A DNA stretch of 41,610 nt, from the NCBI GenBank assembly GCA_009885945.1, contig VFJR01000012.1, forward strand, positions 1 through 41,610. Direction: 5' to 3'. Positions 12,452 through 37,921 of the stretch are shown piece after piece; the first letter of the stretch is position 1, and each line of letters starts with the position of its first letter. The translations under genes were made by a program, and so were the position numbers. The DNA is from Anaerolineaceae bacterium. Lineage in GTDB: Bacteria; Chloroflexota; Anaerolineae; Anaerolineales; Villigracilaceae. The notes below the pieces were generated by a model. The model saw only the letters and a program-made list of their open reading frames with translations. It had not been told where the DNA came from and made no database searches.

Positions 12452-13930
12452 ATGCAACCTAAACTTTTACTGCTTGACGATAATTTAATAGCCCGTATTT
12501 TAGACGAGGCATATCAACTTTTACTAAAACCCGGCATTAAAGTCAACAACGACGAGGCAAGAGAATTGCTTGCAGCAGCGGGTGCACAAATTGATCCTGA
12601 AACAAACGTTGCACATATTCCCGAACAAATTGTTCGCAAGGCTTTAGCAACTGCACCTCGTGAATTTTATTTATACGACCTAGACGGCAATCCCACCGTT
12701 AAATATGGCGGCGATGCAGTTCACTTTGATCCTGGCTCATCTGGCATTGCTATGCTCAACCCTGAAACTCTTGAGCACGAAACAACAGAAACTGCCCACC
12801 TGCTGAAACTAATCAAGGTTGCAGAACAATTACCGCAGTATGATGCACAATCCACAGCGGTGGTATGTCATGATGTGCCGCAAACTATTCAGGATTCATA
12901 TCGCCTTTATCTGGCATTGATGTATTCCAAAAAGCCGATTGTTACAGGCGCATTCACCAATAAAACAGTCATTGAAATGATCGACATGCTCTCCATTCTT
13001 GCAGGCGGGAAGGAAGCCGCGCGTGAAAAACCGCGCGCCATCTTTGACGTATGCCCTGCTCCTCCATTGATTTGGAGTAATTTTGGCGCAGGCAATTTAA
13101 TTGAACTTGCGCGCGCAGGCATACCTGCTGAAATTGTTTCTGTACCGCTCTCTGGCGCAGCAGCTCCTGTAACCATGCTTGGAACTGTTACACAACACAC
13201 CGCAGAATGTCTTGCAGGCATTACCATTCATCAATTGGCAAAAGCAGGCTCACCTGTGGTTTGGGGCGGCGCAGCTTGTATTTTCGATATGAAAAAAGGC
13301 GCAACTCCAATGGGATCTGTGGAAACCGCTATGCTGGATTGTTCGTATGCGCAGGTTGCAAAATCACTTGGGATGCCAACACACGCATATCTCGGATCAT
13401 CTGACTCAAAACTTGTGGATGCACAGGCGGGGCTTGAAAGCGGCGTGACCGCCATGATTGGCGCGCTGAGCGGAATCAATATGATCTCTGGTTCTGGTAT
13501 GTTGGATTTCCTCTCTTGCCATAGCGCTGAGAAGCTTGTGATTGACGCCGAAGGGATTGCAATGGCACAGCGTATGCTCGAGGGCGTCAAAGTACTAACC
13601 GAAACTTTAGCAACCGAGTTCTACGATAAGAACATCAATTTCAAAGGCGGCGATTTTCTCAAACAAAGAGTCACGATGAATCTCTTCCGCAAAGAACAAC
13701 ACATGCCCAGTAACGTTATTGACCGAGACTCCATGCGCGATTGGAAAAAAGCAGGCTCGCTGGATACCTTCGAGCGTGCAAAAATAATGGTGACAAATTT
13801 ACTCGCCTCCTACAAACGCCCTGAACTTGATCCATCCAAAGAGCAATTACTTCACGCCTTTATGCTTGATCTTTGTAAAAAAGCAGGTGTCGAAAGCCTG
13901 CCCGTGCTTGAGGAATTTGAGCCAGCCTAA
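12452..13930 (+). CDS. Trimethylamine methyltransferase (MttB) superfamily protein, non-pyrrolysine, copy 1
   Basis: 492 residues covering the full MttB fold. Features seen are an N-terminal helical segment, YDLDGNPTVKYGG, SSGIAMLNPETLE, the TIM-barrel core with GAAAPVTMLGTVTQHTAECLAG, and GLESGVTAMIGALSGINMISGSGM. The frame is uninterrupted: no in-frame TAG at the pyrrolysine position of archaeal MttB. It therefore belongs with the glycine-betaine/proline-betaine/carnitine-type demethylases, which move one methyl group from a quaternary amine to the corrinoid protein. The start is supported by GAGGTGAG about 5 bases upstream. The S9 peptidase gene begins 3 bases after its stop. The actual substrate is unknown. 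Confidence 0.92.
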   Translation: MQPKLLLLDDNLIARILDEAYQLLLKPGIKVNNDEARELLAAAGAQIDPETNVAHIPEQIVRKALATAPREFYLYDLDGNPTVKYGGDAVHFDPGSSGIAMLNPETLEHETTETAHLLKLIKVAEQLPQYDAQSTAVVCHDVPQTIQDSYRLYLALMYSKKPIVTGAFTNKTVIEMIDMLSILAGGKEAAREKPRAIFDVCPAPPLIWSNFGAGNLIELARAGIPAEIVSVPLSGAAAPVTMLGTVTQHTAECLAGITIHQLAKAGSPVVWGGAACIFDMKKGATPMGSVETAMLDCSYAQVAKSLGMPTHAYLGSSDSKLVDAQAGLESGVTAMIGALSGINMISGSGMLDFLSCHSAEKLVIDAEGIAMAQRMLEGVKVLTETLATEFYDKNINFKGGDFLKQRVTMNLFRKEQHMPSNVIDRDSMRDWKKAGSLDTFERAKIMVTNLLASYKRPELDPSKEQLLHAFMLDLCKKAGVESLPVLEEFEPA

Positions 13931-34175: not shown

Positions 34176-35615
34176 TTAATAGGCTCTTGCAAAATATACT
34201 TTTCGTTTAGAAGTTTTGCCGCACACTATACAATTCCCATCATGGCCCGGCTGTTCAAATGGAATATTACGCGTGGTAGCTTTTGCATCTTCTTTGGCTT
34301 TGGTCTCACACTCTGTCGATTCGCACCAGTAGGAAAACGCCCAACCATCTTGAACTACTTTCTTGAGTTCTTCATAATCTTTGGGATCATGGATATTTGC
34401 ATCACGGTATTCAGTAGCGCGTTTGAGCAGAGAATCTTGTATCTCAGACAGAAGCAGGTTTAAGGCAGAGTCGAGACCCGTTTGAGGGACGAATGTTTTT
34501 CCTTCTCGCCCGGGTCGGTCGCGGCGAGCAAGAGCAACAGATTGTTTCTCTACATCTTTAGGTCCAATTTCAATGCGCACGGGCACACCGCGCATTTCCC
34601 AATCATTGAATTTAAAACCACTGCTAACATTATCGCGGTCATCCATTTTGATGCGAATGCCCGCGGCTTTGAGTTCTTTGAAAATGCGCTCGGCAACATC
34701 CATTACTTTGTTTTTTTCTTCGGGCGATTTAAAAATCGGTACTATAACCGCTTGGGTAGGCGCGAGCCGTGGAGGCAATACCAACCCCTGATCATCCCCA
34801 TGCACCATAATCATCGCGCCAATAATGCGCGAAGAAATTGCCCATGAGGTGGTTTCGCAAAATTGAAGTGTATTGGCATTATCCAAATATTGAATTTCGA
34901 AAGCTTTTGCAAAATTTTGCCCAAAATAATGCGATGTTCCCGATTGCAGAGCGCGTTTATCCCACATCATAGCTTCAATTGAAGTAGTAATTTGTGCGCC
35001 TGCAAATCTTTCGGTTTCGCTTTTTGTGCCTTTAATAATTGGAAGCGCGGCTTGGCTGAGACAGAAATCTTCATAGATATCAAGAATGCGATACATTTCT
35101 TCTTTAGCTTCTTCAGAAGTAGCATGCGCAGTGTGTCCTTCGTGCCAATAAAATTCAGAGGTGCGCAAGAAAAGCTTTGTGCGCATTTCCCAGCGCAGTA
35201 CAGACCCCCACTGGACAATGAGAATTGGCAGGTCGCGCCACGACTTAATCCACTTAGCATACATGTGTCCAATAATGGTTTCAGAAGTGGGGCGAACTAC
35301 CAATGGCTCTTCCAATTCATTACCACCGCCGTGAGTCACTACTGCTAATTCAGGCGCGAAGCCTTCCACGTGTTCTTTTTCCTTCTCAAAAAAAGACATT
35401 GGGATTAATGTTGGAAATGCGGCATTGACATGCCCAGTCGCCTTAAATTCTTTGTCGAGCCACGCAGTGATGTTCTCCCACAAAGCCCAGCCATACGGTT
35501 TCACGACCATACAGCCGCGTACAGGAGCGTAATCTGCCAAGTCTGCTTTTACGACCAATTGGTTGTACCATTCAGAAAAATCTTCCGCGCGAGTTGGTAA
35601 TTTATCTTCAGACAT
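34176..35615 (-). CDS. proS: Prolyl-tRNA synthetase, archaeal/eukaryal-type (ProS type 3)
   Basis: 479 residues, the short form without an editing insertion. It starts with EDFSEWYNQLVVKADLADYAPVRGCMVVKPYGWALWE and carries the class II motifs (VVRPTSETIIGHMYAKWI; VLRWEMRTKLFLRTSEFYWHEGHTAH; GVPVRIEIGPKD) and a C-terminal domain with Cys residues (WCESTECETKA, NCIVCGKTSKRKVYFARAY). It charges tRNA-Pro. ACTGGAG precedes the ATG by 7 bases. A good promoter, a proline-rich leader ORF and an intrinsic terminator lie upstream, suggesting attenuation by proline or tRNA-Pro charging. Confidence 0.96.
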   Translation of the reverse strand: MSEDKLPTRAEDFSEWYNQLVVKADLADYAPVRGCMVVKPYGWALWENITAWLDKEFKATGHVNAAFPTLIPMSFFEKEKEHVEGFAPELAVVTHGGGNELEEPLVVRPTSETIIGHMYAKWIKSWRDLPILIVQWGSVLRWEMRTKLFLRTSEFYWHEGHTAHATSEEAKEEMYRILDIYEDFCLSQAALPIIKGTKSETERFAGAQITTSIEAMMWDKRALQSGTSHYFGQNFAKAFEIQYLDNANTLQFCETTSWAISSRIIGAMIMVHGDDQGLVLPPRLAPTQAVIVPIFKSPEEKNKVMDVAERIFKELKAAGIRIKMDDRDNVSSGFKFNDWEMRGVPVRIEIGPKDVEKQSVALARRDRPGREGKTFVPQTGLDSALNLLLSEIQDSLLKRATEYRDANIHDPKDYEELKKVVQDGWAFSYWCESTECETKAKEDAKATTRNIPFEQPGHDGNCIVCGKTSKRKVYFARAY

Positions 35616-35698: not shown

Positions 35699-35733
35699 AA
35701 AATAAAAAACGGCTCGCCAAGCCTGGGAGCCGT
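35699..35733 (-). terminator. Intrinsic terminator between the proS leader ORF and proS (candidate attenuator)
   Basis: On the minus strand the stem ACGGCTC/GAGCCGT (35733-35727 with 35715-35709), extended by CCA/TGG, is followed by TTTTTTATTTT (T-tract 35709-35699, overlapping the last stem base). It lies 84 bases before the proS ATG and downstream of the proS promoter. Confidence 0.88.
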
Positions 35734-35756
35734 CCACTAATATATTGAACTGAATC

Positions 35757-35813
35757 TTATCCAGACCGGGGGAGGGTTATTACTTTAGGGGATGGATACG
35801 GGTTCATCTTCAT
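35757..35813 (-). CDS. Candidate proS leader peptide (18 aa, four prolines)
   Basis: A short ORF MKMNPYPSPKVITLPRSG runs from ATG 35813 to TAA 35757. Prolines are at positions 5, 7, 9 and 15 (CCG, CCA, CCT, CCC). The predicted transcription start is within a base or two of the ATG, so it could be translated as a leaderless message. The terminator begins 23 bases after its stop. The GGUCUGG of codons 16-18 (35767-35761) can pair with CCAGGCU in the terminator's 5' side (35726-35720) with two G.U pairs, a possible antiterminator. Expression is not shown. Confidence 0.5.
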   Translation of the reverse strand: MKMNPYPSPKVITLPRSG

Positions 35814-35820
35814 ATAATTT

Positions 35821-35849
35821 ATTATAAATGGAAAAGTAAATTTGAGCAA
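35821..35849 (-). promoter_or_regulatory. Promoter of the proS transcription unit
   Basis: On the minus strand TTGCTC (35849-35844), a 17-base spacer and a perfect TATAAT (35826-35821). The expected start is near 35814, next to the leader ATG at 35813. Confidence 0.7.
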
Positions 35850-35881: not shown

Positions 35882-37921
35882 TTATAGGTTTTTCGTTTCT
35901 TGTTTTTTAAAATTAGATTTCAAAATTATGACAAGAAAACTAATCAACAATGCCCCAAACATAAACGCATACACCTGCTCTTCTTTCAAATAAAAGAATT
36001 TAATAATACTTATCAAATTAAGAAAATTAAGTGCGCTCATAAATGAAAAGAACAGCCATTTGCTTTGCGCATCAGTTGAATTTGTTATTCTAGAAATCCA
36101 TTTTAATATTGCATACCATCCGCCGCATAACAGCAAAGCAGTTGGGATAATAGCAGGAAATGCATATCTAGCCCACGGCGTCAATCCTCTGATCAATAAT
36201 TCATTAGACCCTCCTCGGATTACCGTAATAATCCAAACCGAAACAAAAGATAGCGACAAAAACAGAAGAATATTCCATGGAAGAATTTTCTGTTTTCGCA
36301 AGATCAGAGCAAATGTTCCTAAAACGCCAGCAATTGAAACAATCTTTAGGAAATCATAAGTTAATTTTCCACCCAGAAGATATATTTTAGCACGCGCAGG
36401 TTTCGCCCAAAATGTCTCGAAAAGCAGAAGAGCGCTTGCCCTAAAGTATCCCCCAGCCCCGTCATAATCCTGTAAAGCTGAAACAAAAATCTGGGAATCT
36501 GCCATAAAATTTGATATTTTCGCCAAAAGCTGCCTTGCTTGAGGGTTTAACCAAATCCAGCCACTCTCGGCAGAAGGGTTGCGTGCTGCGTTTTGAAATT
36601 CCAGCCCATCCCATATTCCGTTTCGCAAACTATCATCTTTATAAACAGGCTCGCCTCTTAAAAATTCTTGCGGAACAAGAGTAATTCCATCATAATAGAT
36701 GGCCGAGCCGTTTATTGCACTATATAGTGTAACCCACCCTTTGATAGCATCATGGGGTACACTTGTTTTTACGCTAACAAAAGTAGGAATTGGGGTTAAA
36801 TTAATTACTTTTTCTTCACTTTTAAATTTTCCATTTTGTGTAACAAAGCTGAATTCTGGTGCTGGCACAACTCCGATGTTCTTTGACCAAACCCATGCTC
36901 CAATAGTAATAACTTTTTTTCTAAAAGGCTTTATTTGCTCAGAAGTAATAAATTGACCAATAAATTTATTACTTCCTTTTTCATCAATTCTAAATGCATA
37001 ATCGCCAAAAGGAGCTAGCTGTGTCAGTACACGTGCCGAAAAAGGCTGATCTAAAGTCCTAAACCAATAAGCAGGATCGCCCAATCGAAATGAAAAAGTT
37101 ACTAAAACAACTACCCCTACCGCTGTTGCAAAATACGGAACCCATTTGTAAAAACGATTAAACGCAGAATACAAGAATACAAATAATGCCAATCCTATTA
37201 TTGGATATACTGTATTCTTCGAATAATATCCGCTAGCAACAGTTAATATCAGGAAAACAAATCTTTCAAGAGTTAATCCATACTTCAGACATATTATTGA
37301 TTGCCAAACAAATAATGAAAATATAAAAACTGCTAACACATCATTATTGATAGAAGTCATTGTATCTGTTAATCCAGGCAAAAGGACTATAAAACAAGTC
37401 ACTATCCATTGAAAAAGGTGACCTTCACCTACCAACTCTCCCACTAATTTCCAGCAGAAATAAATTACACCCAGAAACATTAAGACTGAGACAAGTCGAG
37501 TAATATAATTTTGAAATTCAAAAGATGAGTTGCTGGTAAGCCACAAAACACGAGACACTACCCAATAATACAACGGCGGATCACTTTTCTGAGACACACC
37601 GATATATATGGACTCGCCGAATGTTAAATCTGGCTGGTGAACATAGAAGTCATAATATCCATACTTAAGCATGGATGCTGCGAGCTTAGATTGCATTTCT
37701 TCATCCACGGTATTATGATTGATTTGGCTTGTTTTGTTCGCCATCAGCCATGCGTACTCAAATTGGGTAGGTTCATCATAATGCCACCATGGTGGAATTA
37801 TGAATGTATAAATCACACCCTGCAACAAACCCAAACACAAGAGAACCTGCAAAGATTTTTGCAAGCCCCAACTCTCAAAGTATTTAATTAAACTATGGAA
37901 ATGCTTTTGGAAAAAATGCAT
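35882..37921 (-). CDS. Polytopic membrane glycosyltransferase-like protein (GT-C/GT39-like)
   Basis: 679 residues with roughly 11-13 TM helices. The first periplasmic loop holds an acidic pair, WHYDEPTQFEYAW, as in dolichyl- or polyprenyl-phosphate-sugar-dependent GT-C enzymes. A long soluble segment (about 310-480) with beta-rich sequence sits between the two membrane halves. It is likely to glycosylate a lipid or protein outside the membrane (inference). The gene stands alone between the palindrome at 37955 and the proS promoter. Its AT content looks somewhat higher than that of its neighbours. Acceptor and donor unknown. Confidence 0.75.
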   Translation of the reverse strand: MHFFQKHFHSLIKYFESWGLQKSLQVLLCLGLLQGVIYTFIIPPWWHYDEPTQFEYAWLMANKTSQINHNTVDEEMQSKLAASMLKYGYYDFYVHQPDLTFGESIYIGVSQKSDPPLYYWVVSRVLWLTSNSSFEFQNYITRLVSVLMFLGVIYFCWKLVGELVGEGHLFQWIVTCFIVLLPGLTDTMTSINNDVLAVFIFSLFVWQSIICLKYGLTLERFVFLILTVASGYYSKNTVYPIIGLALFVFLYSAFNRFYKWVPYFATAVGVVVLVTFSFRLGDPAYWFRTLDQPFSARVLTQLAPFGDYAFRIDEKGSNKFIGQFITSEQIKPFRKKVITIGAWVWSKNIGVVPAPEFSFVTQNGKFKSEEKVINLTPIPTFVSVKTSVPHDAIKGWVTLYSAINGSAIYYDGITLVPQEFLRGEPVYKDDSLRNGIWDGLEFQNAARNPSAESGWIWLNPQARQLLAKISNFMADSQIFVSALQDYDGAGGYFRASALLLFETFWAKPARAKIYLLGGKLTYDFLKIVSIAGVLGTFALILRKQKILPWNILLFLSLSFVSVWIITVIRGGSNELLIRGLTPWARYAFPAIIPTALLLCGGWYAILKWISRITNSTDAQSKWLFFSFMSALNFLNLISIIKFFYLKEEQVYAFMFGALLISFLVIILKSNFKKQETKNL

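Follow-up and report, generated by a model that had tools for sequence, protein, structure and literature searches.

A proline-codon leader element upstream of proS in a Chloroflexota bacterium: a predicted attenuator related to leaders with exchangeable sensor codons

Main finding

The DNA preceding proS in an Anaerolineaceae bacterium (Chloroflexota; Villigracilaceae) very probably encodes a proline-sensing, ribosome-mediated transcription attenuator of this gene, and the element looks like the proline branch of a Chloroflexota family with exchangeable sensor codons. The element was read from a stretch of 41,610 nucleotides (contig VFJR01000012.1), hereafter the window. Its open reading frame (ORF), codons, promoter spacing, terminator and pairings are conserved; ribosome stalling, co-transcriptional timing and the response to proline are inferred, without transcript, expression or charging data.

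Organization of the element

The sequence-only reading had described, on the minus strand, a promoter (TTGCTC-N17-TATAAT), an 18-codon ORF with four Pro codons, an intrinsic terminator with a T-tract, and proS. All of these are present in the window, the terminator and proS both lying downstream of the leader ORF, and the observation is confirmed as real. The parts, all on the minus strand, are as follows.

35844..35849, minus: weak -35-like box TTGCTC, 3/6 match to TTGACA
35821..35826, minus: -10 box TATAAT, 17 nt from TTGCTC and 7 nt from the ATG at 35813
35757..35813, minus: leader ORF MKMNPYPSPKVITLPRSG plus stop, 18 codons, apparently leaderless; frame, Pro codons and stop kept in relatives
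35787..35801, minus: sensor Pro codons 5, 7 and 9 (CCG, CCA, CCT); base 2 conserved, base 3 drifting
35793..35798, minus: region 1 UAUCCA; partner UGGAUA (35763-35758) in the whole-leader fold
35761..35767, minus: region 2 GGUCUGG, ending in the Ser and Gly codons; 2:3 pairing from swap test and alignment
35720..35726, minus: region 3 CCAGGCU, in the terminator 5' arm and loop; from folds, swap test and alignment
35704..35735, minus: intrinsic terminator, hairpin 35735-35707 and U-tract 35709-35704; from sequence, scan and folds
34176..35615, minus: proS, archaeal/eukaryal-type proline--tRNA ligase (family I), TIGR00408 above cut-off; the likely regulated gene

The Pro residues of the window leader are codons 5, 7, 9 and 15, and its C-terminal end reads Ser-Gly-stop. 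Region 2 GGUCUGG (35767-35761) is complementary to CCAGGCU (35726-35720), so the pairing proposed from the sequence alone is possible in the window, and it is conserved in relatives. A simple scan of the window detected the short terminator core and missed the promoter, whose -35 box matches at 3/6 positions; the -35 region is poorly conserved among 80 leaders. With up to three mismatches allowed, the terminator core occurs only once in the 3.43-Mb genome.

No T-box or other Rfam family matched the elements at gathering scores, and the earlier remark that no T-box consensus is visible is borne out by the lack of a match to the T-box covariance model. A weak SECIS_4 score (E 0.82) and four weak Rfam scores at L154 (best E 0.041, to a Burkholderia sRNA model, 18 of 40 bits) were taken as chance. 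Elsewhere in the window, a match to Rfam PYLIS_3 (13397-13496, plus strand, 41.2 bits) lies inside an MttB-like ORF (12452-13930), which needs no TAG read as a residue to stay open and is thus probably a non-pyrrolysine homologue.

Conservation of the element in relatives

The best 80 of 583 confirmed relatives from a proS scan were taken as loci. From 3' features alone, the element was found at 66 of these 80, giving 67 elements with the window, three of which run off the end of the fetched stretch, leaving 64 untruncated in this first set. For the 14 loci without an element in the fetched flank, a genome-wide search recovered it in 7 more; at L040 it apparently lies on another contig than the proS fragment. 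Even genome-wide, no element was found for 7 of the 80 loci (L023, L058, L074 and L078-L081), and the contig of L023 begins 28 nt before proS. In an even sample of the class, each of the 25 genomes of the window's family gave exactly one match.

In every one of the 64 untruncated elements, TATAAT or TACAAT stands 6-10 nt ahead of an in-frame ATG, the scripts permitting distances of 3-14 and 4-12 nt, and the frame is open through to Ser-Gly-stop in 63 of the 64, the exception, L069, having an internal TGA. After further genomes were added, with a search that demanded the -10-to-ATG spacing, the enlarged set comprised 80 distinct leaders, 79 of them with an intact ORF. The -10 box lies 6-7 nt from the ATG in 58 of 62 leaders (5' ends unmapped), a spacing that fits a leaderless start in the window's family, the transcript 5' end itself being inferred. 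In L057 the leaderless ATG is gone, and an in-frame ATG remains about 30 nt beyond the -10 box. The stop codon is TAG in 52, TAA in 9 and TGA in 1 of the 62 leaders, and TGA also in L029. The L069 and L076 leaders have an in-frame stop after the Pro codons and before region 2, which could reflect degeneration of the element, an error in the sequencing or a variant with early release of the ribosome.

Most leader peptides of the window's family fit N-P-x-P-S-P...S-G. Among 42 distinct 18-codon ORFs, pairwise differences at codons 7 and 9 were 0.30 and 0.30 for base 1, 0.09 and 0.05 for base 2, and 0.58 and 0.63 for base 3. In-frame Pro codons numbered 200 versus 131 ± 9 in shuffles; CC-starting triplets per leader were 3.2 in frame versus 2.6 and 2.9 in the other frames, a modest excess. 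The four Pro codons emphasized at the outset are not equivalent, codons 5, 7 and 9 forming the conserved sensor and Pro15 being unconserved. The comparison of related proS upstream regions that had been suggested as a check found a short ORF, Pro codons with drifting third bases and a terminator all conserved.

Gene order around the element

Among the best 80 of 583 proS loci, the order is element-MazG-LOG-proS in 54, element-LOG-proS in 10, element-proS in one (L025) and other or truncated in 15. The placement of the element directly before proS holds for the window and L025, but a LOG-like gene, mostly with a MazG-like gene too, intervenes in 64 of the 80 loci. The sole LOG-type (PF03641) match in the window genome lies on a different contig from proS. 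Because the element is retained next to proS even when MazG and LOG are missing, as in L025 and the window, proS is its likely target.

Upstream of the element in the window lies a gene on the same strand (35882-37921, minus), whose 3' end is close to the element. L093 has a PolyA_pol-domain gene (domain confirmed; 175-1428, minus) divergent from just upstream of the element, the promoters being apparently back to back, and L103 has a similar ORF (107-1534, minus), also divergent from just upstream. At L072, a SAM riboswitch (268-371, minus, 93.4 bits) is found on the strand opposite the proS leader.

RNA pairing and folding in the window's family

The partner of region 2 GGUCUGG in relatives is CCAGACC or CCAGGCU, located in the 5' arm and loop of the terminator. 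In swap tests on 79 leaders, from which kinship was not removed, the own 2:3 pairing was better than that with swapped partners (0/2000 permutations as good), and the same held for pairing of the sensor region with the bases after the stop codon (0/2000); relatives often pair region 1 CGAACC with GGUUCG after the stop. As controls, region 1 with region 3 was neutral (1237/2000 swaps) and the post-stop bases with region 3 were not (5/2000). The sensor paired with the last five codons less well than with swapped partners (2000/2000 swaps as good or better), so that the protector in the window's family would act mainly via the post-stop bases.

The 2:3 helix is paired in 96.7% of alignment cells, mostly invariant, with one pair changed on both sides, and the outer terminator stem is 100% paired in alignment A1. 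In whole-leader folds, for which there was no shuffled control, region 2 or its flank pairs with the 5' part of the ORF in 68 of 79 leaders. Three states were folded for 62 leaders. With the ribosome modelled at the stop codon, the terminator had P > 0.5 in 62 of 62 leaders; in the stalled state, before the terminator 3' arm is made, the antiterminator had P > 0.5 in 56 of 62. In stalled-state folds at equilibrium, the terminator is favoured over the antiterminator in most leaders (mean P 0.80 versus 0.18, 62 leaders; 0.99 versus 0.01 in the window), so the antiterminator must win kinetically, and timing matters. From the shared region 3, the 2:3 antiterminator is inferred to exclude the 3:4 terminator; its pairing is also inferred to run into the terminator loop, hindering closure of the outer stem.

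A wider family in the Chloroflexota

Outside the window's family, model R1 gave weak hits before homocitrate synthase genes (L116, L118), with Lys-containing leaders ending in Ser-Gly-stop; a third hit (L117) ends a longer reading frame and was rejected. A pattern search with inspection turned up further elements built in the same way, standing ahead of genes for lysine (homocitrate synthase, LysX), arginine (argC, argG) and proline (family-II proS, and MazG/metallophosphoesterase/LOG/family-I proS clusters), with examples from other classes of Chloroflexota (L176, L177, L179). The design is not restricted to proS or to the lineage of the window, these relatives with Lys or Arg codons standing before lysine and arginine genes elsewhere in the phylum. 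Among class genomes the pattern matched 64 of 396, and among phylum genomes 47 of 400; about 20 of those 396 class genomes also matched the reversed control, and chance matches within coding sequence account for many of the hits. Those followed up had a clear hairpin, apart from G181 (L156), which looked like chance and was set aside. Within a single family, 5 of 15 genomes gave hits to a pattern search, and two of these hits (L169, L173) were left out.

Leaders of the wider family end in sensor-Pro-Asp-x-x-Ser-Gly-stop, corresponding to CCGGAC-N5-GUCUGG, which forms the 1:2 hairpin, and are followed by a terminator whose apex carries CCAGAC (region 3). Joint covariation of the 1:2 and terminator helices exceeded all 500 shuffles on every measure, mostly owing to the terminator; the 1:2 helix is paired in 92.6% of cells, with one pair changed on both sides. 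Among 135 canonical elements, the 1:2 hairpin has 6/6 pairs in 106 and 5/6 in 22, and, for the 2:3 pairing, own partners do better than partners swapped inside one target class (0/2000; control 385/2000). Region 2 GUCUGG has become AUCUGG in seven elements, with the partner CCAGAU in five (L190, L196, L153, L312, L320), a wobble partner in L249 and CCAGAC retained in L250; it has become GUCCGG in five, with the partner CCGGAC in two (L319, L343) and not in the other three. The stop codon precedes region 2 in L149, L253, L281 and L295, and L291 has no stop in the frame used.

By a strict -10 test, 5 of 16 Pro, 1 of 87 Lys and 0 of 39 Arg elements appear leaderless (out-of-frame control 2/149), and leaderlessness is not a trait of the whole wider family. 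A post-stop motif is also conserved (position 5 G in 103/135, position 7 T in 106/135), with no pairing partner named. Tandem attenuator-like elements occur at L199, L207, L210, L243, L244, L273, L290, L302, L319 and L339, nine of these loci having a lysine gene next and L273 no recognised gene, and in several first copies the stop or frame is displaced. Tandem Arg and Lys attenuators at L290 and L302 were considered and rejected, the Arg reading being the wrong frame of a Lys leader.

Sensor codons and target genes

Covariance model R2 was built from 18 elements of the wider family, starting at the codon before Pro-Asp and excluding the 11-codon sensor window. With this model, matches came from 114 of 386 genomes in the class search and from 32 of 380 in the phylum search, where 30 lay outside the class. 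A re-search of the fetched loci gave 181 matches, 28 of them without an ORF by the rule used; removal of one without a clean window, three duplicates and nine without a recognised target left 168. Thus 168 of 177 non-redundant elements precede a recognised gene, taken as the first downstream gene (94 Lys, 50 Arg, 24 Pro).

In 130 of the 168 (Lys 79/94, Arg 34/50, Pro 17/24), the gene agrees with whichever of the Lys, Arg and Pro codons is most frequent among the 11 upstream codons, versus a mean of 58.9 and a maximum of 79 in 10,000 label shuffles. The other 38 comprise 22 ties, 7 without any of the three codons in an open frame and 9 pointing elsewhere, L290 and L302, with their misread frame, still being counted as disagreements. 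Single-linkage clustering chained all elements together, and grouping at 60% identity was used instead; with one representative per group, 29 of 38 agree, 1 is wrong and 8 are undecided (shuffles: mean 12.0, maximum 21).

Target names came from tblastn comparison with proteins encoded at the loci themselves and were checked with curated models; three assigned by eye (carA in L197, lysW twice in L244) were confirmed afterwards. The argC-like hits could include lysY, the homoaconitase-like target is matched only by subfamily models whose scope includes leucine enzymes, and the LysE-like target passes Pfam LysE and falls below NCBIfam cut-offs. Pro leaders occur before both ProRS families (TIGR00408 and TIGR00409). 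Two further families of the class also have Pro leaders, lying upstream of clusters with proS (60-64% identical) at L148/L149/L166 and at L150/L163 and L151/L164, so that the Pro branch shows the same gene neighbourhood there.

In the class and phylum searches, R2 at an E-value of 1e-3 gave no hit in any of the 20 genomes listed from the window's family. Applied directly to 20 loci of that family, R2 fell in the right place in 17, with E-values from 2e-5 to 0.96, the window being weakest (0.96), and in the reverse test model R1 matched L161 (4.1e-7) and L162 (1.3e-5). L190 and L196 share with the window's family the same operon, a Pro-x-Pro sensor and leaderless spacing. From these cross-matches and shared features, we infer that the element of the window's family may be a derived proline branch in which the CCGGAC hairpin has been replaced by CGAACC:GGUUCG.

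We further consider it likely that a single ancestral core has spread through the Chloroflexota and repeatedly changed its specificity by swaps of the sensor codons alone (Lys, Arg, Pro), and that it has been taken up even by two distinct proline-tRNA ligase families.

Proposed mechanism and alternative explanations

RNA polymerase would start at or beside the A of the ATG, giving a leaderless leader, with a ribosome following. When Pro-tRNA is sufficient, the ribosome would reach the stop codon and cover region 2 GGUCUGG, region 3 would enter the terminator, and transcription would stop before proS. When Pro-tRNA is scarce, the ribosome would wait at Pro codons 5, 7 and 9, leaving region 2 free; region 2 could then pair with region 3 before the terminator 3' arm exists, and proS would be transcribed. 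Without a ribosome, region 1, lying in the sensor codons, is predicted to pair with bases at or after the stop, and the terminator would form. Across the family, the putative common core is Ser-Gly-stop at N-UCUGG-N-UAG with CCAGA at the terminator apex, and the sensor codons (Pro, Lys, Arg) appear exchangeable. The earlier idea that stalling at the early Pro codons favours antitermination is supported by the conserved codons and the fold states, stalling itself remaining an inference.

It is improbable, though somewhat less so than the other alternatives, that the ribosome is stalled by the peptide sequence itself (P-x-P-x-P, EF-P or an antibiotic) and not by the supply of Pro-tRNA. Pro-rich peptides are established to slow ribosomes (compare PMC8129111 and PMC11611912), but leaders of the window's family have no conserved Pro-Pro pair. 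Codon supply is indicated by the leaders that share the related core, in which Lys or Arg codons go with a corresponding Lys or Arg gene.

We give very little weight to the hairpin being merely the terminator of the upstream gene, with the short ORF a chance occurrence and the proS promoter after the terminator. The same-strand gene at 35882-37921 does end near the hairpin, and there is a weak promoter-like match across the proS start, but conservation extends to the frame, the Pro codons, the stop, the promoter spacing and the 2:3 pairing, and the divergent upstream gene of L093 (with a similar ORF in L103) means that the hairpin there ends no upstream gene. A functional micropeptide with a conserved Ser-Gly C-terminus is just as hard to sustain: Ser-Gly-stop is almost invariant in the leaders, but codons 2, 3, 6 and 10-13 vary widely, and the constant end doubles as region 2, which in L115 (Pro-Gly end) has become CCUGG together with a change of region 3 to CCAGG.

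Relation to known systems and significance

The proline-sensing attenuator proposed here resembles the trp/his/leu/phe-type attenuators of E. coli and others, in which a leader ORF carries cognate codons and 1:2, 2:3 and 3:4 pairings govern an intrinsic terminator; the pheST synthetase genes of E. coli are also attenuated by a leader peptide. Unlike these systems, the element has proS as its likely target, is found in Chloroflexota and has an apparently leaderless ORF in the window's branch; moreover, its stop codon directly follows region 2 and one core appears to serve Pro, Lys and Arg leaders. Tsubouchi et al. in 2005 reportedly described a leader peptide with Lys codons before the AAA-pathway lysine genes of the Thermus thermophilus lysine cluster, which would resemble the Lys branch here, in a different phylum.

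Peptide-leader attenuation of the synthetase genes trpS and leuS of Streptomyces is described in PMC1262725, in whose main text the terms 'proS' and 'prolyl' are absent; these genes and E. coli pheST are synthetase genes under attenuation, as predicted for proS, for other amino acids and in other phyla. The attenuator RNA of Sinorhizobium meliloti trpL begins with the ATG of the leader ORF, according to PMC7298713, and is thus leaderless, as the window element appears to be, differing in its amino acid (Trp) and lineage (Alphaproteobacteria). T-box riboswitches also control synthetase and amino-acid genes, and those of two Dehalococcoides (Chloroflexi) are listed for ile and trp genes in PMC2494555; the element has no T-box match. 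Limited literature searches brought up neither a proS peptide attenuator nor an attenuator family spanning operons, and Lopatovskaya et al. 2010 (PMID 20198868), on attenuation of synthetase operons, could hold earlier predictions. The novelty first supposed for proS stands to that extent, but the related core is not confined to proS or to this lineage.

To our knowledge, each peptide-leader attenuator is usually regarded as an invention of its own, and such leaders as too short and too variable to be traced by homology. If the shared ancestral core is real, it would constitute an attenuator family recognisable by homology across targets, as against leaders arising independently in each operon. 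With it, proS would join the synthetase genes under peptide-leader attenuation, and the leader codons may offer a way to predict the relevant amino acid in mostly uncultured bacteria. One attenuator core that can be traced across a phylum while its amino-acid specificity changes would open testable questions on how such switches change specificity.
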